Source: Sulfurimonas sp. HSL-3221
GTDB lineage: Bacteria > Campylobacterota > Campylobacteria > Campylobacterales > Sulfurimonadaceae
NCBI RefSeq assembly: GCF_021044585.1
Contig: NZ_CP087998.1
Span: 1,736,001-1,800,000, forward strand
Reading direction: 5' to 3'
Length of the DNA: 64,000 nt
Position 1 is the first letter of the stretch. Every line of letters starts with the position of its first letter. Position numbers and translations under genes: made by a program. A model generated the notes under the pieces. That model was not told the origin of the DNA, made no database searches, and saw only the letters and a program-made list of their open reading frames with translations. Of this stretch, positions 476-42,046 are shown piece after piece.

Positions 476-1330
476 ATGACCGGAGGCTTCTTTGCCATTC
501 TCGACGATATCGCGGCGCTGCTCGACGACACGGCCGTCATGAGCAAGGTCGCGGCCAAAAAAGTGGGCGGCGTCCTGGGCGACGACCTCGCCGTCAACGC
601 CGAGCAGGCCTCCGGCCACGCCAGTTCGCGCGAACTGCCCGTGCTCTGGGCCATTACCAAGGGCTCTTTCCGCAACAAGGCGATCATCCTCCCCATCGCC
701 TTCCTGCTCAGCGCCTTCGCCCCCTGGGCGATCGTGCCCATCCTGATGCTCGGGGCGGCCTACCTCAGCTACGAGGGGGCGGAAAAAGTACTGGAATACC
801 TGCGGCCGGGTCATCATGGGGAAGAGCAAAAAGGCGCCGTAGATGAAGCCGCCAAGATCACATCGGCCATCCGCACCGACTTCATCCTCTCTATCGAGAT
901 CATCGTCATCGCCCTGGGCGTCGTCGCCGGGGAAGCGCTGACAACCCAGATCCTCGTCGTCACCCTGATCGCGCTGCTGGCAACCGTGGGGGTCTACGGC
1001 ATCGTCGCGCTGATGGTGCGCATGGATGACATGGGCTTCGCCCTGGTCGGTTTCAGCCAGACAAGCACGGGCACAAAGGCCGTCCTCCTGAAACGCTCCG
1101 GCCTCCTGCTGGTGCAGGCCATGCCGAAACTCATCAAGGCGCTGGGCTACATCGGCACCGTGGCGATGCTGCTGGTGGGCGGCGGCATCTTCGTCCACCA
1201 CTTAGAGTGGCTACACCACGCCCTCGCATTCCTGCCCTCCGTCCTGCCCGAACTCGTAAGCGGCCTGGCTGCCGGGCTATTCCTTGTCACTGTTGTCTCG
1301 GCGTCGAAGCTTTTAACGCACCGGGAATGA
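476..1330 (+). CDS. DUF808 family inner-membrane protein (YedI-like)
   Basis: The 284-residue protein matches the DUF808/YedI family over its whole length. It has the N-terminal block MTGGFFAILDDIAALLDD, the VGGVLGDDLAVNA segment, and about six to eight hydrophobic helices (around residues 75-105, 135-185, 220-245 and 255-280). Its function is unknown. The start follows AGGAG at 466-470. It is divergent from anmK and is followed by an A/T-stem terminator. A second, truncated copy of its C-terminal end lies at 2489-2597, so this locus has been duplicated or rearranged. Confidence 0.9.
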   Translation: MTGGFFAILDDIAALLDDTAVMSKVAAKKVGGVLGDDLAVNAEQASGHASSRELPVLWAITKGSFRNKAIILPIAFLLSAFAPWAIVPILMLGAAYLSYEGAEKVLEYLRPGHHGEEQKGAVDEAAKITSAIRTDFILSIEIIVIALGVVAGEALTTQILVVTLIALLATVGVYGIVALMVRMDDMGFALVGFSQTSTGTKAVLLKRSGLLLVQAMPKLIKALGYIGTVAMLLVGGGIFVHHLEWLHHALAFLPSVLPELVSGLAAGLFLVTVVSASKLLTHRE

Positions 1331-1343
1331 TCGCGCCTTTCAA

Positions 1344-1370
1344 AATAAAAACACAAAATGTGTTTTTATT
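1344..1370 (+). terminator. Rho-independent terminator after DUF808 gene
   Basis: A perfect 12-bp inverted repeat (AATAAAAACACA / TGTGTTTTTATT) with a 3-base loop starts 13 bases after the DUF808 stop and is followed by GCTTTTTT. The A/T-rich stem with a T run on the plus strand fits an intrinsic terminator. Confidence 0.75.
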
Positions 1371-1574
1371 GCTTTTTTCGACAAATCAATCTCATTTTCG
1401 TTCATTTAACGCGTTTTTCGTCATTAAACACATATGAAAATTTTTCTTTCCAGGCAGCTTTACACCCAATTTTCATGGTAATAATGTAATTTTTTTCAAA
1501 ATGAAAACACATTTTTTATGTTAATTAATAATGCTATACAAGATTAAAATGCTAGTATGTTCGTTGAATAAATA
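1371..1574. other. AT-rich gene-free spacer
   Basis: The roughly 200 bases after the terminator are strongly AT-rich compared with the neighbours, with T runs at 1430-1450 and 1490-1500. I see no credible ORF. The base composition resembles the cassette region that follows, not the flanking core genes. Confidence 0.5.
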
Positions 1575-1730
1575 GTTATCCGCTCGCTACGCGACCGGAT
1601 AACGGGGGCGCGGGCTGAACACCCGCTGGTCATCTGTCGCATAGCGCCAGATAACAAGCGGATGCACCGATCACCCTCCAGAAAATTGAAATTTTCCGCA
1701 GGGCGTCGGTGACCCGCGCCCCCGTTAGGC
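1575..1730 (+). repeat. attC-like recombination site (integron cassette boundary)
   Basis: The segment ends in GTTAGGC (1724-1730), which fits the GTTRRRY core of integron attC sites. It folds on itself: TAACGGGGGCGCGGG at 1600-1614 is perfectly complementary to 1713-1727, with a second imperfect stem (CACCGA...TCGGTG, about 1665-1710) and an inner AT hairpin at 1681-1696. The 5' side also has GTTATCCG / CGGATAAC (1575-1582 / 1596-1603). The left core box (GGATAAC) is not a good RYYYAAC match, so the site is degenerate or nested. No integrase gene of the IntI type is in the window. Confidence 0.55.
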
Positions 1731-1737
1731 AAATGAA

Positions 1738-2097
1738 ATGAACACTATAGGAACATGGAACTGGTGGCGATCAAAGCGACGAGATTACAACCGTTGGTTA
1801 GTCTTTGCTGGTCTATCTGCATTCATGGCCTATGCTTTACTAATATTCTCTTTCCCAAAAGTAATACCGGATGCGGAAGTTACGGCATTTACAATACTGT
1901 TCCAAGGAGTAGGATATTTAATTGCCATAGCGTTGGCAAATGTATTTTTCTTTCTCGGGCCCATCAGTGAGCGATTATTAAAGCCAGTTGATCCGGAACA
2001 TTTTAGGAAAATTACATATGGAATTGGAAAGTGGCTTTCCGTAGCGTTGCCATTTAGCATTCCAGCCATCGTACTCTATGAAATAGTGAACAAATAA
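1738..2097 (+). CDS. Small membrane protein in cassette-like unit
   Basis: 119 residues, no family recognised. Two hydrophobic segments near residues 22-40 and 48-72 and one near 98-115 predict an inner-membrane protein with three helices. The gene starts 7 bases after the GTTAGGC core of the attC-like site and ends 3 bases before GCCTAAC (2101-2107), the form of the opposite core box. This tight fit of one ORF between two core boxes is the classic gene-cassette layout. Its lower GC content and different codon use from neighbours also suggest acquisition. There is no clear Shine-Dalgarno sequence, which is common for cassette genes. Confidence 0.75.
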   Translation: MNTIGTWNWWRSKRRDYNRWLVFAGLSAFMAYALLIFSFPKVIPDAEVTAFTILFQGVGYLIAIALANVFFFLGPISERLLKPVDPEHFRKITYGIGKWLSVALPFSIPAIVLYEIVNK

Positions 2098-2100
2098 GAT

Positions 2101-2107
2101 GCCTAAC
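2101..2107 (+). repeat. attC left core box (RYYYAAC)
   Basis: GCCTAAC directly follows the cassette ORF stop and is the exact complement of the GTTAGGC at 1724-1730. No matching GTTRRRY is seen downstream before the gene-fragment region, so this attC is truncated. Confidence 0.5.
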
Positions 2108-2122
2108 AAACCAAAAGAGACC

Positions 2123-2152
2123 AATCAAAAACCCGCGGGCGGCTTTTTGATT
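2123..2152. terminator. Hairpin with AT stem, probable bidirectional terminator
   Basis: CAATCAAAAA and TTTTTGATTG form a perfect 10-bp stem around a GC-rich loop containing the palindrome CCCGCGGG. It lies between the cassette gene and the downstream fragment of the SSS transporter and could terminate transcription from either side. Confidence 0.5.
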
Positions 2153-2159
2153 GCTTATT

Positions 2160-2488
2160 TTAAACGTTGCTCGTTTTTCCACCCAACTGCATCATAACAA
2201 ACGCCACCGCTGTCCCCCCGACAAGCTGATCGGCCAAAGAGAACGCCCCACCAAAGCAGTAGGGCTGCAAAAGCAACACTGTGACAAAACCGCCGCCCAG
2301 GGCCCACGGCACCGCCTGGGCGCTTCCGCGTTTTGTAAAGAGCGCCGAGGCGTAGACGCCCAGCAGGCCGGCATAGGCGAAGCTCATGACCCCCAGCGCG
2401 AAACTGACCAGCGGCAGGTCCGTCGCACGCTGCCAGTAGTAGCTCACGACGGCCATCATTGTCAGCACGAGTGCAAAGAGCAGTACGG
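2160..2488 (-). pseudogene. C-terminal fragment of SSS-family transporter
   Basis: The last about 105 codons of an SSS symporter are preserved and end in a stop at 2160. The protein is nearly the same as the C-terminus of the intact copy at 5564-7057 (from MLTMMAVVSYYWQRATDLPL through GGTAVAF), whereas the DNA differs mainly at third positions. The similarity stops at about 2488, exactly where the DUF808-like fragment begins on the other strand. It lacks the first 11 or so transmembrane helices and cannot work as a transporter. Confidence 0.85.
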
Positions 2489-2597
2489 CCTGGCTTTCCT
2501 CCCTTCCCTCCTGCCCGAACTCGCAAGTGGCCTCGTCGCCGGGATGCCGCCGGTGGCAATTATGATAGCCTGGGAGCGTTTAGTACAACGGCAGTGA
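2489..2597 (+). pseudogene. C-terminal fragment of DUF808 family gene
   Basis: About 35 codons ending at a TGA (2595-2597) encode LAFLPSLLPELASGLVAGMPPV..., matching the C-terminus of the intact DUF808 protein (LAFLPSVLPELVSGLAAGLF...). The rest of the gene is missing and the sequence is joined directly to the SSS fragment, head ends inward. This is a deletion scar, not a gene. Confidence 0.8.
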
Positions 2598-2831: not shown

Positions 2832-5459
2832 ATGCTCATTCAGATACGATACGCGCTCGCGGCACTTGTCGCCGTCTCCCTGACTTCCTGTGCCACTGGC
2901 CCATCCCCATCCGCTTCTGCCGGGGCCAAGCCCACCCAAAAATCCGCACCGCCAAAAACAGCCGGCGACCTGGACCCGATGTACCGGCCACTCGGGGATG
3001 TCGATCTTTCGCAATACAAGAGCGCCGGTAACGGCCTGCTGCTGGTTGCCCGAAAGGGCGACTACGATATCCTGCTGACCAAACCCGGGTACCCCTATGA
3101 ATTGCCTGCAATGGGCTGGTCCGGCATCAACTACCACAAAGCCACACGAAACGTATCACAGTTCAGCGGATACATGATGCGCGCAAGAAATAAGGGGAAT
3201 AATCCACTTCCCTACATCGGGCGCCAGGTATTCGTAGATATTGACGGCGTCGCGGAGTCCTACTACGGATCGTTTGCTTGGAACAGCTTCAAGCAGTGCC
3301 TGTTTTGCAGCCGCGACACCATTGTAGAGTTTGTCGAGGGTATTCCCGAGGTTCGGGACACGGACGGCAAGGTACTTAGAATGCCGTACAAGATCAACCG
3401 CTATTGGGAATATTGGTATCAATTCAACAGTGGCAACTACGTATGGCATTACGTTACCAATAGCGAACAAACTTCCCGCAAAATCCAGCTAAGACCGGCT
3501 AGCCATGACCAAAAACCGGTCTACACCGAGGTCTCCGGTCTGCCCCAGTACGAATTCGTGCTGCCGCATCCAGAGCAGGTCGCTGCCAATTTTCCCAGCA
3601 CTGACCGTGCGCTGTTCACACGTACCTACTCGCTGGGCGACCTGCTCCGGCAAAAAAAAATCAATCCTGACAACCTGCTCCTGAAGCCGTTTAGCCCAAC
3701 CTCGCTGAGGGACAACTTCAATAAATCCAAGATTCACAAGTATGATCATGCCTGGATTTCACACGGGCAGTCGGCGTTCGTCTCCAGCCCGATGACCGGG
3801 AAAACCTACCTGCAGCCGTACCAAAAGCCGCCGGTGCTGACACTGCCTTCATTGAAAGAGATCGTCATGAACGGCAAGCTCTCCGTCAACCGTCAGTGCA
3901 TGGGAAAAACGGATGGCATGGTAGTACTCACGGGCCAGTGTGACCCCGCGTCGCCGGTGTTCCCACTGACCGTGATGACGCAGATCTCCACCAACCAGTT
4001 TGTCGTTAACGTGTGGTCGGACATCAATCGCCGCAGCAGCTACCTGCTGACCGGCGGCCAGTTCCCAAAACAAAACTTCTACCGCTGGAACATCGATGCC
4101 TTTATGGTGAACACAACTGTTGATCCCGACACCACACTTGCCGCCCTAGAGACGGGTGACGACCCCTTTTCGGAAAAAATGATCGCCTTTGCCAACCAAA
4201 ACCAGGACCGTCAGGTCTGCGACAAGATGGCCACGGCGGTCAGCAACGCCGAAAAAGCCCTGCACTTCGACCCGGATATCGAGGAGCGTCTCGCGAAATA
4301 CGAGCACTACTACAAGATGGATTGGGCTGACATGGGCAAGGCCATCTCAAATATCGACAGAAACCCCAAGCACACGCCGGTCACCGATTTCGAGGAGTTC
4401 GTCTGGGACGATCTGGTCAGTATGAGAACGGACATCGACCAACGTCTCAATGTCCTCAACCGCTACAAGGATGTCAACAATAGCGTATGCCAACCGGATC
4501 CTCAACGTATGACCCAACTGGTAACGGCGCTCACGAGCTTCAAAGCAGATCTTAGGGCCTCTATGAAACAGTTGGACGACACCTACTACGATCAAGCCGT
4601 TGAGCGCAAAAAAGAGATCTACTATTGGGCCAACCGGCTGGAAGAGGCCAAGAAACAGGCGGCAATGGCACAGTTTATGGACAAGCTTCATGCCTCACTG
4701 AATGCCGATCTGGCGGCAAAACAGGCGGAACGCCGTTCGATGACGCGCAGCATACTCGAGAGTCGCCGCGCCGTCAAGGCCCAAATCGCGGATGTCAAGG
4801 CACGCAATGCCGCTTATTTTGCCAACCATAAACCGGCCGTGAGTGCACCGAGCGCGGTGACCATCGCCCCGGTCACGATGCCGTCGTACTCGCTCGACAC
4901 TACCGCGGATTCAAAGGTCTACCTTGGTGGCTTGACATCGAATCGTCTCAGTTTCCAAGACGCTATCGCTCAGTCAAAGATCAAAACCGCACAGCTAAAG
5001 CAAACGACTACGGGCACGGCTCCAAACGCGACCGCTGCAACACCGTCCGCAGAGTCGGCCCCTGAGGCAAAACCTTCCAGAGATGCTCCCGGAGGTGCTG
5101 CGATCTGTGTCGCTGTGAGCCGCAATGCCAGCAATAACATGACAGACCTTGGCTACTACTACGCCTATGATCAGCACTCTACGCCACTCAAGACCGACAG
5201 AGTGGCTCGCCAGAAATATGCCGCCGAACACAACGGCACCCCAAGCTGTAAACACAATGACGAAGACGAGGTCGGCGCATTGGTCGTGGTCGTATGGGAC
5301 GGCAAGGACTATACCGGTGCCGCAAGCCGAACCTACGGCATGGGCTTCGGTCTATCAACCGGTGCCGCGGAAATGGATGCCGTCAATAATCTGTCCAATC
5401 GCAACTGGAGCTGGAAACCATCAATGGGCTACCGCGTTGTGTTCGCCAAGCAGTATTGA
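2832..5459 (+). CDS. Large lipoprotein of unknown function with coiled coil
   Basis: 875 residues. The N-terminus is a lipoprotein signal peptide with lipobox LTSC (Cys20), so the protein is predicted to be anchored in the outer or inner membrane facing the periplasm. Residues 60-450 are a mixed Tyr/Asn-rich region with no family I recognise. Residues about 490-680 are charged and helical, with likely coiled coils around 570-665. A low-complexity Ala/Thr/Pro linker follows, then a compact C-terminal block (about 765-875, from AAICVAVSRN to FAKQY) resembling small secreted DUF4189-type domains. It is a single-gene unit. The start has a weak ribosome site. Function cannot be assigned. Confidence 0.85.
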   Translation: MLIQIRYALAALVAVSLTSCATGPSPSASAGAKPTQKSAPPKTAGDLDPMYRPLGDVDLSQYKSAGNGLLLVARKGDYDILLTKPGYPYELPAMGWSGINYHKATRNVSQFSGYMMRARNKGNNPLPYIGRQVFVDIDGVAESYYGSFAWNSFKQCLFCSRDTIVEFVEGIPEVRDTDGKVLRMPYKINRYWEYWYQFNSGNYVWHYVTNSEQTSRKIQLRPASHDQKPVYTEVSGLPQYEFVLPHPEQVAANFPSTDRALFTRTYSLGDLLRQKKINPDNLLLKPFSPTSLRDNFNKSKIHKYDHAWISHGQSAFVSSPMTGKTYLQPYQKPPVLTLPSLKEIVMNGKLSVNRQCMGKTDGMVVLTGQCDPASPVFPLTVMTQISTNQFVVNVWSDINRRSSYLLTGGQFPKQNFYRWNIDAFMVNTTVDPDTTLAALETGDDPFSEKMIAFANQNQDRQVCDKMATAVSNAEKALHFDPDIEERLAKYEHYYKMDWADMGKAISNIDRNPKHTPVTDFEEFVWDDLVSMRTDIDQRLNVLNRYKDVNNSVCQPDPQRMTQLVTALTSFKADLRASMKQLDDTYYDQAVERKKEIYYWANRLEEAKKQAAMAQFMDKLHASLNADLAAKQAERRSMTRSILESRRAVKAQIADVKARNAAYFANHKPAVSAPSAVTIAPVTMPSYSLDTTADSKVYLGGLTSNRLSFQDAIAQSKIKTAQLKQTTTGTAPNATAATPSAESAPEAKPSRDAPGGAAICVAVSRNASNNMTDLGYYYAYDQHSTPLKTDRVARQKYAAEHNGTPSCKHNDEDEVGALVVVVWDGKDYTGAASRTYGMGFGLSTGAAEMDAVNNLSNRNWSWKPSMGYRVVFAKQY

Positions 5460-5563: not shown

Positions 5564-7057
5564 CTAGCCGACTGCTTTTTCCTCTGTCCCCAACTGCATA
5601 ATCACAAATGCCACCGCCGTCCCCCCGACAAGCTGATCGGCCAGGGAAAATGCCCCTCCGAAACAGTAGGGTTGCAAGAGAAGGACCGTGACAAAACCGC
5701 CGCCAAGGGCCCACGGTACCGCCCGAGCACTGCCGCGTTTCGTAAAGAGTGCCGAGGCGTAGACGCCCAGCAGCCCGGCGTAGGCGAAGCTCATGACCCC
5801 CAGCGCGAAACTCACCAAAGGCAGGTCCGTGGCCCGCTGCCAGTAGTAGCTCACGACGGCCATCATTGTCAGCACGAGCGCGAAGAGCAGTACGGCCGCA
5901 CGGGCGGCGGCGACGTAGTGGCTTTCTGCCGTCACGCCCCGCGCCGTCTTCCAGGGGCGGTAAATGTCTTCCACGGCCACCGAGGCCATCGCCGCGAGCA
6001 CCGAGTTTGTCGAGGAGAGCGCGGCGGCGATCGCCCCCACCGTCACGAAGCCGCGTAACCCGGCGGGCATTTCATTGAGAATGTAGGTCATGAAAATCGT
6101 GATCTTCTCTCCGCCGAACTCCTGCACGGCGCCGCCGCCGATGCCGGAGAGTTCCGGGTGGTTGTAAAAGAGGTAGAGCAGCAGCCCGATGGCGAGGAAA
6201 AGAAGCACGACGGGAATCGTCATGACGATGGAGACGACCAGCGCCCGGGAGCCGTCTCGCCCGTTTTTACAGGCCAGCACGCGCTGGGTCATATCCTGGT
6301 CCAGGCCGTAGGCCGCGATGTTGAGCAGCAGCCAGCCGCCCAGCAGGCTCCAGATGCCGAAGTTCCCGGCCGTGTCGATGAGGGTCAGTTTCCCCTCGGC
6401 ATTCAAAACGTCGTACATCGTCCCGAAGTCCGTCTGCAGCGTGCTGTAGAGGTAGATCAGCACGGCCACCCCCGCCCCGATGTAGGTCACCGCCTGGATG
6501 ACGTCGCTGTAGATGACCGACTTCACCCCGCCGAAGTAGGTATAGGCCAGCGCCCCCAGCACGAGCATGAGGATGGCGGCAAAGAGGTGCAGCGGCGCGA
6601 TGTCGGCGAAGACGATCATCGAAACGGCCAGCGCCCCGATGTAGAGGCGCGCGCCGCTGGCGAGGACCCGCCCGACAAGGAACATGACGCCCGCTTCGCG
6701 TTTGGCCGTCGCGCCGTAGCGCCGCTCCAGCAGTTCGTAGACGGTGACGGCGCGGATGGCGTAGAAGCGCGGCACGAGCACCTTGGCAATGAAGAGCACG
6801 GCCAGCAGTGCCGAGACGTAGAAACCGACAAAGGTGAGGTTGCTGCGATAGGCGTACTCCGGGCCGCCCAGAAAGGTCGCCGCCGACTGCGAGGTCGCCA
6901 GTACGGAGGCGGCGGCGGCGAGCATCGGGACGCTGTTGCCGCCGACGAAGTAGTCGCGCGATGAACGGATGTTCACGCGGGAAAAAAGCCACGAACTGAA
7001 GGCGAGGATGGCAAAATAGCCGCCGAAGACGGTCCAGTCGAGGGGGGAGAATCCCAT
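5564..7057 (-). CDS. Sodium:solute symporter (SSS) family transporter
   Basis: 497 residues with about 13 hydrophobic helices and the SSS signature region near residues 35-75 (GGNSVPMLAAAASVLATSQSAATFLGG begins it). It is expected to be a Na+-coupled importer in the inner membrane. It starts inside the stop codon of the NagZ-amidase gene (TGATG), so the two are translationally coupled. With AnmK nearby, the likely substrate is a peptidoglycan breakdown sugar such as anhydroMurNAc; this is inference from context only. A truncated copy of its 3' end is at 2160-2488. Confidence 0.9.
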   Translation of the reverse strand: MGFSPLDWTVFGGYFAILAFSSWLFSRVNIRSSRDYFVGGNSVPMLAAAASVLATSQSAATFLGGPEYAYRSNLTFVGFYVSALLAVLFIAKVLVPRFYAIRAVTVYELLERRYGATAKREAGVMFLVGRVLASGARLYIGALAVSMIVFADIAPLHLFAAILMLVLGALAYTYFGGVKSVIYSDVIQAVTYIGAGVAVLIYLYSTLQTDFGTMYDVLNAEGKLTLIDTAGNFGIWSLLGGWLLLNIAAYGLDQDMTQRVLACKNGRDGSRALVVSIVMTIPVVLLFLAIGLLLYLFYNHPELSGIGGGAVQEFGGEKITIFMTYILNEMPAGLRGFVTVGAIAAALSSTNSVLAAMASVAVEDIYRPWKTARGVTAESHYVAAARAAVLLFALVLTMMAVVSYYWQRATDLPLVSFALGVMSFAYAGLLGVYASALFTKRGSARAVPWALGGGFVTVLLLQPYCFGGAFSLADQLVGGTAVAFVIMQLGTEEKAVG

Positions 7058-15913: not shown

Positions 15914-17269
15914 CTAGGCAAGCCCCAGCATTTCCCGCGTCTCATCGGGCGTTGCGATGCGACGCTGCAGCTCCTCCGCGATCCGCGCGACCCGACGGAC
16001 CAGCGCTTCGTTCGAAGCGAGTACCTTCCGCTCGTAATCGTAATGGATGTTATCCTCTATACCAACGCGGACGTGCCCTCCCGCGGCGACGGCGGCGGCA
16101 TTCATCGGCAGCTGGAAGCCGCCCAGCCCCGCCCCGGCCCAGACGGAGTCCTCCGGCAGCGCCTCTGCGATCATGGTCAGGTTGCCGAGCGTCGCCGGCG
16201 CCGTGTTGAGATTACCAAGCAGGATATTGAAGTATTTGCGCCCTTTGATGATCCCGTGCCGCTCAAGATACTTGGCCAGGTTGACCATCCCGTAATCGAA
16301 GACCTCCATCTCCGGCCGGATCCCCTTCTCCTGCATCGTCATCGCCAACCGCTCGACCATGTTGATCGTATTGACGCTCGCCCCGGAAAGGAAATTGAGT
16401 GACCCGAGCGTCAGGCTCGCCATATCCGGTTTCGCCCCCCCGCTCAGATGCAGCACCTCGGAGCGCCGTTCGAAATCACTCCAGTTTCGTCCCGACGTGG
16501 AGACACAGCAGACCATCCCCGGCCGCTCCCGGCGTATCCCCGTTAGGATTGCTTCGTAATAGCGGGCATCAGGCGTTGGCAACCCCCGTTCATCCCGGGC
16601 GTGGATATGGACGATGCGCGCTCCTGCATCATAAACGCGGATCGCATCCGCAACAATCTCCTCGACATGGACCGGGACATACGGCGTGCTTACTTTCGTC
16701 GGCACCATCCCCGTCAGACAGACATTGATCATCAACGGAGGAAAGGGATTCAGCGGGTGCGGATCGTTCCCCTCGATATAGGCTGCCGCCGCGATTTCGC
16801 GCTCTGCCCTTGTCTCGAAATGGCGGACGAGGTCCATCCGCAGCGTCGTCCAGTGGGTCACATCCTCCAGGCTGAAGGAGCAGAGCTTCTCCAGGCGGCC
16901 GACAACCTCATAGCCGTAATGCTTGCGGTACCAGACAATCGTCTCGGGGTGGTCCGCATTTGTCGTCACATACTTTACCCCCGCATCATACATCGCTTCC
17001 AGCCGGGCATTCTGAAGCGCCTTCCCGATGTTCATACCCTGGAATTCCGGGTAGACCCCCAACAGCGTCGTTTTCCCCTCTTCGGGCGAGAGGATCTTGT
17101 AACCGCCCGCACCGATGATCCTACTGTCCTCCGTCCGGGCAACATAGAAACAGGCGAGGTCGAGCTCCTCCATCTCTACCGAAGGAACATGGTGCATATT
17201 CCACGGTTCCATCACTTTCAAGATCGCATCCCTGTCACCCGCAGCGGCTTTTTCGATTCGGTATTCCAT
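15914..17269 (-). CDS. GNAT acetyltransferase fused to BKACE (DUF849) beta-keto acid cleavage enzyme
   Basis: 451 residues. Residues 1-150 form a GNAT domain (VYPEFQGMNIGKAL for acetyl-CoA binding, then AMYDAGVKYVTTNAD and YRKHYGYEV). Residues about 175-451 are a BKACE enzyme, with MINVCLTGM at its start, the Zn-binding HIHARDERGLP, STSGRN, EMEVFDYG and the C-terminal RVGIEDNIHYD. BKACE enzymes condense a beta-keto acid with acetyl-CoA to give acetoacetate and a CoA ester; a fused acetyltransferase would share the acetyl-CoA chemistry. It is convergent with the ATP-grasp genes (no gap). The substrate is unknown. Confidence 0.9.
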   Translation of the reverse strand: MEYRIEKAAAGDRDAILKVMEPWNMHHVPSVEMEELDLACFYVARTEDSRIIGAGGYKILSPEEGKTTLLGVYPEFQGMNIGKALQNARLEAMYDAGVKYVTTNADHPETIVWYRKHYGYEVVGRLEKLCSFSLEDVTHWTTLRMDLVRHFETRAEREIAAAAYIEGNDPHPLNPFPPLMINVCLTGMVPTKVSTPYVPVHVEEIVADAIRVYDAGARIVHIHARDERGLPTPDARYYEAILTGIRRERPGMVCCVSTSGRNWSDFERRSEVLHLSGGAKPDMASLTLGSLNFLSGASVNTINMVERLAMTMQEKGIRPEMEVFDYGMVNLAKYLERHGIIKGRKYFNILLGNLNTAPATLGNLTMIAEALPEDSVWAGAGLGGFQLPMNAAAVAAGGHVRVGIEDNIHYDYERKVLASNEALVRRVARIAEELQRRIATPDETREMLGLA

Positions 17270-17348
17270 CGTCGACCCCCTAAGATCATCTATTCTACTG
17301 TTTTATGGTGCGCTTTTCCATTAGACCGCCCCAGATCCCGGAGTAAAG

Positions 17349-33796: not shown

Positions 33797-34924
33797 TCAA
33801 GCACTCTTTGAAATTCTCGGTGCCATTACGGTGTCATTCAGTGCCACGCTTTTTTCAAGAAATGACGCTCTCTTTTTGCGTTTGCGATTAATGTAACGTG
33901 CATAATGCGACAGTGTCATTGTCGCGTCTTTGTGGCCAAGCATATTCGATACCCACAAGATATCTTCATTGTGCTCCAGCATCATTGTCGCGAATGAGTG
34001 ACGGGTATGATAGATCGGCCTATACTCCAATCTGCACTTTTTCAATGTCCGTTTCCAGTCTGTGTCGCGGATGCGTTTGATATCATAATAGTGTTCGCCA
34101 TCTCTGTTAAGAAAGACATAGCTGTCATTCTGTCCAGTTTGTTTGAACTGATCTTGTAGATACGGAATCAGCGTATCGATCATTTCGACTTGGCGAATAC
34201 TCTGAGCAGTTTTCGGTTCCGTCACTGTTCCCATCTTGATCGCACGCTTTACGCTAATAGAACCACGCAAAAAATCCACATCTTCCCATCTCAGCCCGAT
34301 CATTTCGCCGCTGCGCATTCCCGTGAAGAATGCCAATGCGTAGAAGTTGCGGAACTGGCCGGATGAGCCGTTCAAAATCAGATTGATTTCCTCAACGCTG
34401 AACGGGTTGATATCCGTCTTGTTCAGCTTTGGAGTACTGACCAAGGCCAATGGACTTTTCTCGATCAGCTCGTCTTTCATAGCATCTTTGAGAATACCGG
34501 AGAGAACCGCCCGGATATGGCGCACCCTTCTGGGGCTAAGCGTTTTCAGCAGATTGTTTTGCCATCTCTGGATATCGGAAGGTTTTATAGTGTCGATCTT
34601 CTTTTTTCCAAGGACGAGAGCGATATGCAATCTGTAGGCGTTTGCATACTCCGTCTGTGTGACAGCCCGTCTTGAGTTGCTGTGCATTTCAAAGGATGTG
34701 ACACTGAAGTCATTTAGTGTCGGTATACGCTTTTCAAAGAACTCGCCGCTATGCAGTTTCAGCATCAGCTGCGGAATGATTTTGGTTTTCGCAAGCTTGC
34801 GATTTTCGGGCGTATTGTCGAGTTTCAATGGTTTTCGATAGCGTTTTCCTCCATGGGAGAAATCGACCCACAAGCTCTCTCTCACGCCGTTTTTAGTTTT
34901 TGTCTTTTTGACATATAGTTTCAT
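33797..34924 (-). CDS. int: Tyrosine recombinase (phage-type integrase)
   Basis: 375 residues. It has an N-terminal AP2-like DNA-binding part (about 1-60), a SAM-like core-binding domain (about 65-160) and a catalytic domain with Arg in GMRSGEMIGLRWED (about 205), HTRHSFATMML (His and Arg, about 310), the His in NMLGHKDATMT (about 333) and the Tyr in LSHYARY (about 344). It should integrate and excise the island at the tRNA-Asn 3' end. The ATG has AAAGGAAA upstream. Confidence 0.95.
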   Translation of the reverse strand: MKLYVKKTKTKNGVRESLWVDFSHGGKRYRKPLKLDNTPENRKLAKTKIIPQLMLKLHSGEFFEKRIPTLNDFSVTSFEMHSNSRRAVTQTEYANAYRLHIALVLGKKKIDTIKPSDIQRWQNNLLKTLSPRRVRHIRAVLSGILKDAMKDELIEKSPLALVSTPKLNKTDINPFSVEEINLILNGSSGQFRNFYALAFFTGMRSGEMIGLRWEDVDFLRGSISVKRAIKMGTVTEPKTAQSIRQVEMIDTLIPYLQDQFKQTGQNDSYVFLNRDGEHYYDIKRIRDTDWKRTLKKCRLEYRPIYHTRHSFATMMLEHNEDILWVSNMLGHKDATMTLSHYARYINRKRKKRASFLEKSVALNDTVMAPRISKSA

Positions 34925-41641: not shown

Positions 41642-42046
41642 AACAATCCTTCACAGTACTGCGAGCGTCTTTTTAACGTCATCATTTGTAGCGGATGGGC
41701 TTCTTGATTAAGTCCGGCAATTATTGCCGCCATCAAGCTCTATATTTGATCAGTAGCATCAGTGCATCCGAACCCCATGAACTTTCTATTATAGCGCGCA
41801 ACAAATCATTTGCAGGTATGCGGTACGCCAAACTTTCACCCTACATAAACATAACGGAGGCGCGGACCGAACACCCGCCGGTTATCTTCCGCATCAAGCC
41901 GCATCACGTTGAAAACGAGTAGTATTTCAATAAACAAACTATAATTTGCTTTGTATAAAATATAAAAAAAGGAATGGCCGTCTAATCATGCAAACGCCGT
42001 TTGATTGCATACGAAGGCTATAAAGTGTAAAGCATAATTTTCCATC
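41642..42046. other. Gene-free region with repeat related to the attC-like site
   Basis: No gene is seen. At 41850-41895 is a segment (ATAACGGAGGCGCGG..., GAACACCCGC, GGTTATCT, CGCAT) about three-quarters identical to the 5' part of the attC-like site at 1597-1645. No GTTAGGC-like core follows within 100 bases, so it is a remnant or another repeat family. Confidence 0.55.

Follow-up and report, generated by a model that had tools for sequence, protein, structure and literature searches.

This study analyzed a window of 64,000 nucleotides, that is, the whole stretch of DNA taken from the chromosome of Sulfurimonas sp. HSL-3221 (genome G000; its chromosome coordinates are given as C1). Within the window, a DUF808 gene is followed by an attI-type leader, two cassettes, and a copy of the 3' end of an SSS symporter gene (Table 1). 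The original prediction had described a solo cassette in which one small ORF lay between the complementary boxes GTTAGGC (1724-1730) and GCCTAAC (2101-2107). Both boxes and the ORF were found exactly as described, and the span required a small extension, to a leader beginning at about 1346 and a last cassette base at G2166. Two cassettes, rather than a solitary one, stand behind the attI-like head.

Table 1. Features of the locus (window positions)
Feature	Position	Strand	Basis or detail
DUF808 gene, platform left border	476..1330	+	Pfam DUF808, 1.9e-91
attI-type leader (intI-attI intergenic region without intI)	1346..1575	+	leader homology
attI core GAATAAATAG|TT	1566..1577	+	crossover between G1575 and T1576
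Gene-less hairpin cassette, 149 bp	1576..1724	+	33 full-length copies, covariation, wobble bias
ORF cassette (TTAGGC...AAACG)	1725..2166	+	start box pairs with R''
ORF, 119 aa, hydrophobic, probably a membrane protein	1738..2097	+	ORF call
attC of the ORF cassette, resident attC family	2101..2172	+	covariance model R1, alignment
SSS symporter gene 3'-end copy, platform right border	2167..2490	-	89% identical to C1:1741589-1741897

The DUF808 border was syntenic at three loci (L064, L065, and L066) in the sister genomes G004, G005, and G007, which belong to the same genus and each consist of a single contig. At the right border, an ORF (2160-2468) was called at the SSS 3'-end copy, and the matching segment C1:1741589-1741897 falls within the full SSS gene. 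Farther downstream, the SSS 3' end (2160-2490) was followed by a DUF808 3' end (about 2490-2597); next came a gene of 875 aa (2832-5459), whose start resembles that of a lipoprotein, and then the intact SSS gene (5564-7057). Compared with 476-1330 and 5564-7057, the stretch at 2160-2600 looks like a tandem duplication; the same arrangement was found in G004.

The leader was 65-76% identical to leaders in G014, G041, G027, and other genomes of the order; in G014, the similarity stopped at G|TT, and unrelated cassettes came after it. The exact 12-mer GAATAAATAGTT occurred only twice in G000, beside intI and at the core in the window, and in intI-bearing relatives the core AATAAATAG|TT lay 218-241 bp upstream of the intI start. 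The leader homology and the core together identify an attI at this position. The DUF808 stop codon and the crossover are about 245 bp apart, and the leader therefore looks like an intI-attI interval from which intI has been removed. The leader contains two palindromes (about 1345-1369 and 1504-1525) and a TATAAT-like -10 box, TAGTAT (1553-1558). The box is conserved among leaders by alignment only and is a candidate Pc promoter, which may drive the expression of the cassettes. As a separate observation, rACA...TGTy palindromes recurred in intI-attI leaders (the two above and L009, about 17170-17345); their sequence varies by genus, and they are possible operator or recombinase sites.

The coding cassette and its attC site

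The start box of the coding cassette is the exact reverse complement of R'' (GCCTAAC). In the array beside intI, each cassette start GTTNNNN is likewise the reverse complement of the R'' of the same cassette, and the window follows this rule. The ORF is framed tightly between 1725 and R'' at 2101 and is co-oriented with the attC.

The original prediction had proposed a check with an attC covariance model. We employed a model, R1, built only from the five attCs of the genome's own integron array. R1 matched 2102-2172 at 85.7 bits (E 1.8e-19, E-values of covariance models being rough), and the attC is therefore real and belongs to the resident family. The sole other R1 match in the 64 kb was the reverse complement of this same attC (28.8 bits). 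The site was 86-97% identical to the attCs of the intI array, and its R' box, GTTGCTC at 2166-2172, differs from the canonical GTTRRRY; the paired R'' and R' boxes, together with the model match, establish it as an attC. It was also found on plasmids of Aliarcobacter (92.6%) and Arcobacter (89.2%), which makes these plasmids possible carriers of the site.

We then considered the encoded protein. Pfam returned only a sub-threshold MFS_1 match (17.8 against a cut-off of 33.4), and PADLOC returned no match. No full-length relative of the ORF was found in its own genome or in the genome-contig collection searched; the protein had only a weak, partial match in the latter collection (Dechloromonas), and the search of these two sources for the same cassette at another location yielded no intact copy, only a distant 35-residue match. 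A terminator-like stem within the downstream site would suit a normal small gene flanked by chance core boxes and a terminator hairpin, but this reading is refuted by the attC match at E 1.8e-19, the exact R-box pairing, and the replacement of cassettes in the sister genomes, and its probability is negligible. The original prediction had named the absence of an attC match and the conservation of the ORF as a normal gene as evidence against a cassette, and neither was observed. Judged from its sequence, this small gene (1.7-2.2 kb) is a true integron cassette.

The gene-less hairpin cassette

The stretch upstream of the coding cassette had been read as one attC site with a 15-bp outer stem. The stem was confirmed (z = -7.0 against shuffles), and the bottom strand of the stretch folded at -58 kcal/mol (z = -9.6). 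The folded stretch thus stood, but it comprises the attI core plus a gene-less hairpin cassette and is not one simple site. The hairpin cassette starts at G1575|TTATCC, carries an R'' box, GGATAAC, at 1597-1603, and ends at G1724; on the bottom strand, it consists of a P0 hairpin and a three-way junction.

When 399 genomes of the order were searched, many copies of this unit were identified, in at least 20 genomes and 7 families among the matches listed. Among the loci read, 33 copies were full-length; about 20 lay directly behind an attI core and the remainder behind attC-like ends, and every copy was followed by GTT and unrelated sequence. In G290, ORF cassettes alternate with identical hairpin copies. 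The segment is thus bounded by G|TT and mobile between contexts, as a gene-less cassette should be. Partial pieces also exist and may be truncations. A parse into two tandem mini-cassettes was rejected because unit and fold remain undivided in the 33 copies.

The common fold of 28 distinct copies contained 54 pairs, with 96.6% of the cells paired. Changes on both sides were found in 34 of these pairs (0 of 500 shuffles; at most 15 in slid controls). When read on the bottom strand, the wobbles comprised 119 G.T and 6 A.C, and it is therefore on the bottom strand that the ability to fold is maintained, as would be the case for an attC substrate. The ordinary attCs of the genus exhibited no such strand bias (24 top and 15 bottom), a difference that leaves room for a bottom-strand RNA. 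The segment 1576-1724 alone could accordingly be a non-coding RNA or another regulatory element and not, or not only, a recombination substrate, a reading compatible with that of the platform as a whole. The strong covariation, the bottom-strand wobbles, and the unbiased ordinary attCs would all suit such an element, but the units lie between G|TT crossovers, following attI sites at some loci and attC sites at others, no room for a bottom-strand promoter is evident, and Rfam gave no credible match for the upstream region or the hairpin unit; we consider this reading somewhat unlikely. Most likely, the hairpin unit represents a gene-less cassette of minimal form, which would travel because its bottom strand is well suited to IntI as a substrate.

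No match to the hairpin unit was found in plasmids and phages. A scan of viral contigs for the core motif gave six matches, all in an unrelated, shared GC-rich context without the hairpin unit. The family was not found in a mostly open-access literature on integrons of Sulfurimonas, Arcobacter, or Epsilonproteobacteria.

Two further observations concern related structures. A partial match to the hairpin unit lies at 41851-41907 of the window (CATAACGGAGGCGCGGACCGAACACCCGCCGGTTATCT) and may be either a truncated copy or a different type of attC. Another gene-less hairpin unit, which starts with TTGCTCGTT or TTGTTCGTG, was found behind an attI core or the first unit, namely at L140 (reverse strand, about 4990-5130) and on the downstream side of the L173 copy; the junction G|TTGCTCGTT at 2166 of the window could be the stump of this second unit.

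The distant integrase and the same slot in sister genomes

The absence of an integrase gene near the cassette, noted in the original prediction, held within the window, where neither intI nor a remnant of it was found at the locus; an intI adjoining the attI, as in a complete integron, is thus lacking here. The genome nevertheless encodes one intact IntI, 764 kb from the window (C1:973383-974324), which is full-length, scored 420.6 bits with the integron integrase profile TIGR02249 (above the cut-off), and contains the SAM-like and catalytic domains in Pfam. The array divergent from this intI has five attC sites of 71 bp each. Over the whole genome, R1 identified sites of the attC family at nine loci (561-563, 726, 845-849, 969-972 [beside intI], 1225-1227, 1352, 1394-1396, 1472-1475, and 1738 kb [the window]), and no cassette common to two platforms was found within G000. 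IntI was present in 13 of the 60 genomes surveyed. Together with the nine loci and the attC copies on Arcobacter and Aliarcobacter plasmids, this count lends no support to the original suggestion that such elements are uncommon in Campylobacterota.

Two side observations belong here. A cassette of the intI array (L009, 13123-13703) is a MazE/PemK-like toxin-antitoxin pair. The weak TIGR02249 matches at C1:1770 kb (25-28 bits) belong to a different tyrosine recombinase of 397 aa, encoded on the minus strand (window about 33863-34660), which may serve another element as its integrase.

A cassette that left the resident array could have been inserted by IntI at an ordinary secondary site of the chromosome (attG type), and the presence of IntI in the genome, the resident-family attC, and the distance between intI and the locus are all consistent with such an event. 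However, an attG target must be neither attI nor attC, whereas the head in the window, which combines an attI core with a 230-bp leader homologous to intI-attI regions, is attI-like, and attI-like heads also occupy the same slot in the sisters. The attG explanation was therefore rejected as very improbable.

Examination of syntenic loci, likewise proposed in the original prediction, revealed the same order in G004, G005, and G007, namely DUF808, an attI-like head, cassettes, and SSS, with cassette contents differing from those of the window. The slot contained several cassettes with three R1 attCs in G007 and two R1 attCs in G005. In G004, it contained one 1145-aa ORF, with a head box TTATGT that pairs with ACATAAC at the cassette end, and the array ended at the SSS stop codon. 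The DNA flanking the slot was about 89-95% identical. The expectation of a cassette and of past integron activity was thus supported. Among the slot cassettes, L066 4400-5266 encodes a PDC-S14 candidate defence protein (GIY-YIG and DUF4357), and L064 1921-5358 encodes the 1145-aa protein, which is of the HD-CE/HATPase type.

No IntI was found in the three sister genomes, where the only matches were near 59 bits, a score that ordinary tyrosine recombinases also reach with this profile. Many other attC clusters in these genomes start with an attI-like core and a matching R-box, and intI remnants adjoin several attI leaders (G007 L138/L144, G004 L136, G005 L141, and G000 L086). At the G007 locus orthologous to the G000 intI, the leader is fused to the last bases of intI between TTGGAC repeats; the 842-kb platform of G007 retains 18 N-terminal and 31 C-terminal intI residues; G004 retains the first intI codons beside an attI leader; and C-terminal ends of intI remain at the 816-kb platform of G005 and the 848-kb locus of G000. 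Beside leaders of the window type, a frameshifted intI was found in G027 (L075) and an intI fragment in G041 (L071). The remnants at these platforms indicate that platforms arise by intI loss.

At the same slot, G004, G005, and G007 have a leader of another type than the window, whose leader was therefore replaced or acquired rather than simply inherited. Because the window has no intI remnant and a leader type unlike that of the sisters, we infer its own history rather than read it from the locus. The same two features would fit a leader segment that came to the slot by duplication or recombination, without intI, in which case no complete integron ever stood there, and near-identical leaders do occur at two platforms of one genome (93.6% for G007 L138/L144; 91% for G005 L137/L142). 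The leader length, however, fits the intI-attI spacing, and intI ends have been kept at other intI-less platforms; we consider a leader arriving alone quite unlikely.

On balance, positions 1346-2166 are read as a degraded chromosomal integron platform that comprises an attI with a promoter-like leader, a hairpin cassette, and a coding cassette with its attC but has no intI of its own, with a probability of approximately 0.85. The ancestor would most likely have been a complete integron between the DUF808 and SSS symporter genes, with intI once standing at exactly this locus and later deleted. IntI would have recombined folded bottom-strand attC sites into attI, leaving the G|TT junctions. The odds that the distant IntI can still act on the window in trans appear about even. 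Exchange between platforms is suggested by a cassette with 119- and 178-aa ORFs that was 98.5% identical over 1079 bp between the G000 intI array and an intI-less platform of G005 (1361 kb). Compared with the approximately 89-95% identity of the flanks, this value is suggestive of cassette transfer between platforms of different species later than the split of those species.

Relation to known integron systems

A CALIN, in the terminology of IntegronFinder, is a cluster of attC sites lacking an integron-integrase. The locus falls within a known category, that of decayed integron platforms, and comes close to a CALIN; two of its traits are less common, an attI head, as at several platforms in one genome, and a structured gene-less cassette. 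One proposal holds that CALINs are degraded integrons (PMC9024848). In Xanthomonas, they occupy conserved positions, and intI has been lost in most strains (PMC12444791); according to the same paper, mobilization of CALINs in trans is possible. The window resembles them in carrying cassettes with attC without an adjacent intI while its chromosome encodes IntI elsewhere, and in a position conserved across species, as in Xanthomonas. In contrast to a CALIN, it is headed by a recognizable attI-type leader, and the default call needs two attCs, whereas the window has one attC of the main family plus a hairpin cassette that probably serves as an attC. Similar to sedentary chromosomal integrons, it has an attI, an attC family uniform within the genome, and cassette turnover between species; however, the locus has no intI, and platforms lie at several chromosomal positions. 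The attG insertions treated in PMC12444791 share the distance of the cassette from intI, but the attI-like head places the window outside their definition.

Gene-less (ORF-less) integron cassettes have been described in Vibrio and Treponema (PMC11014356, PMC6557892). The hairpin unit is similar to these cassettes in that it has no ORF, is bounded by crossovers, and could affect downstream cassettes. By contrast, it forms one conserved three-way-junction family with compensatory evolution across at least seven families of the order, and it exhibits a bottom-strand wobble bias. We tentatively propose, at slightly less than even odds, that Campylobacterota hold a family of mobile cassettes without genes, defined by structure alone, which form a three-way junction of approximately 150 bp with compensatory change on the bottom strand, spread by borrowing IntI, and often stand first behind attI; the copy in the window would then lie on one of several intI-less attI platforms that a single IntI could serve in trans.

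The integron system described here is distributed among several platforms headed by attI, with no genome having more than one integrase, and it belongs to a phylum whose integrons have received little study. Such genomes are natural material for asking whether IntI keeps remote platforms alive in trans, and the hairpin cassette offers a clean case for a gene-free DNA unit that would persist and spread solely through its fold on the recombining strand.
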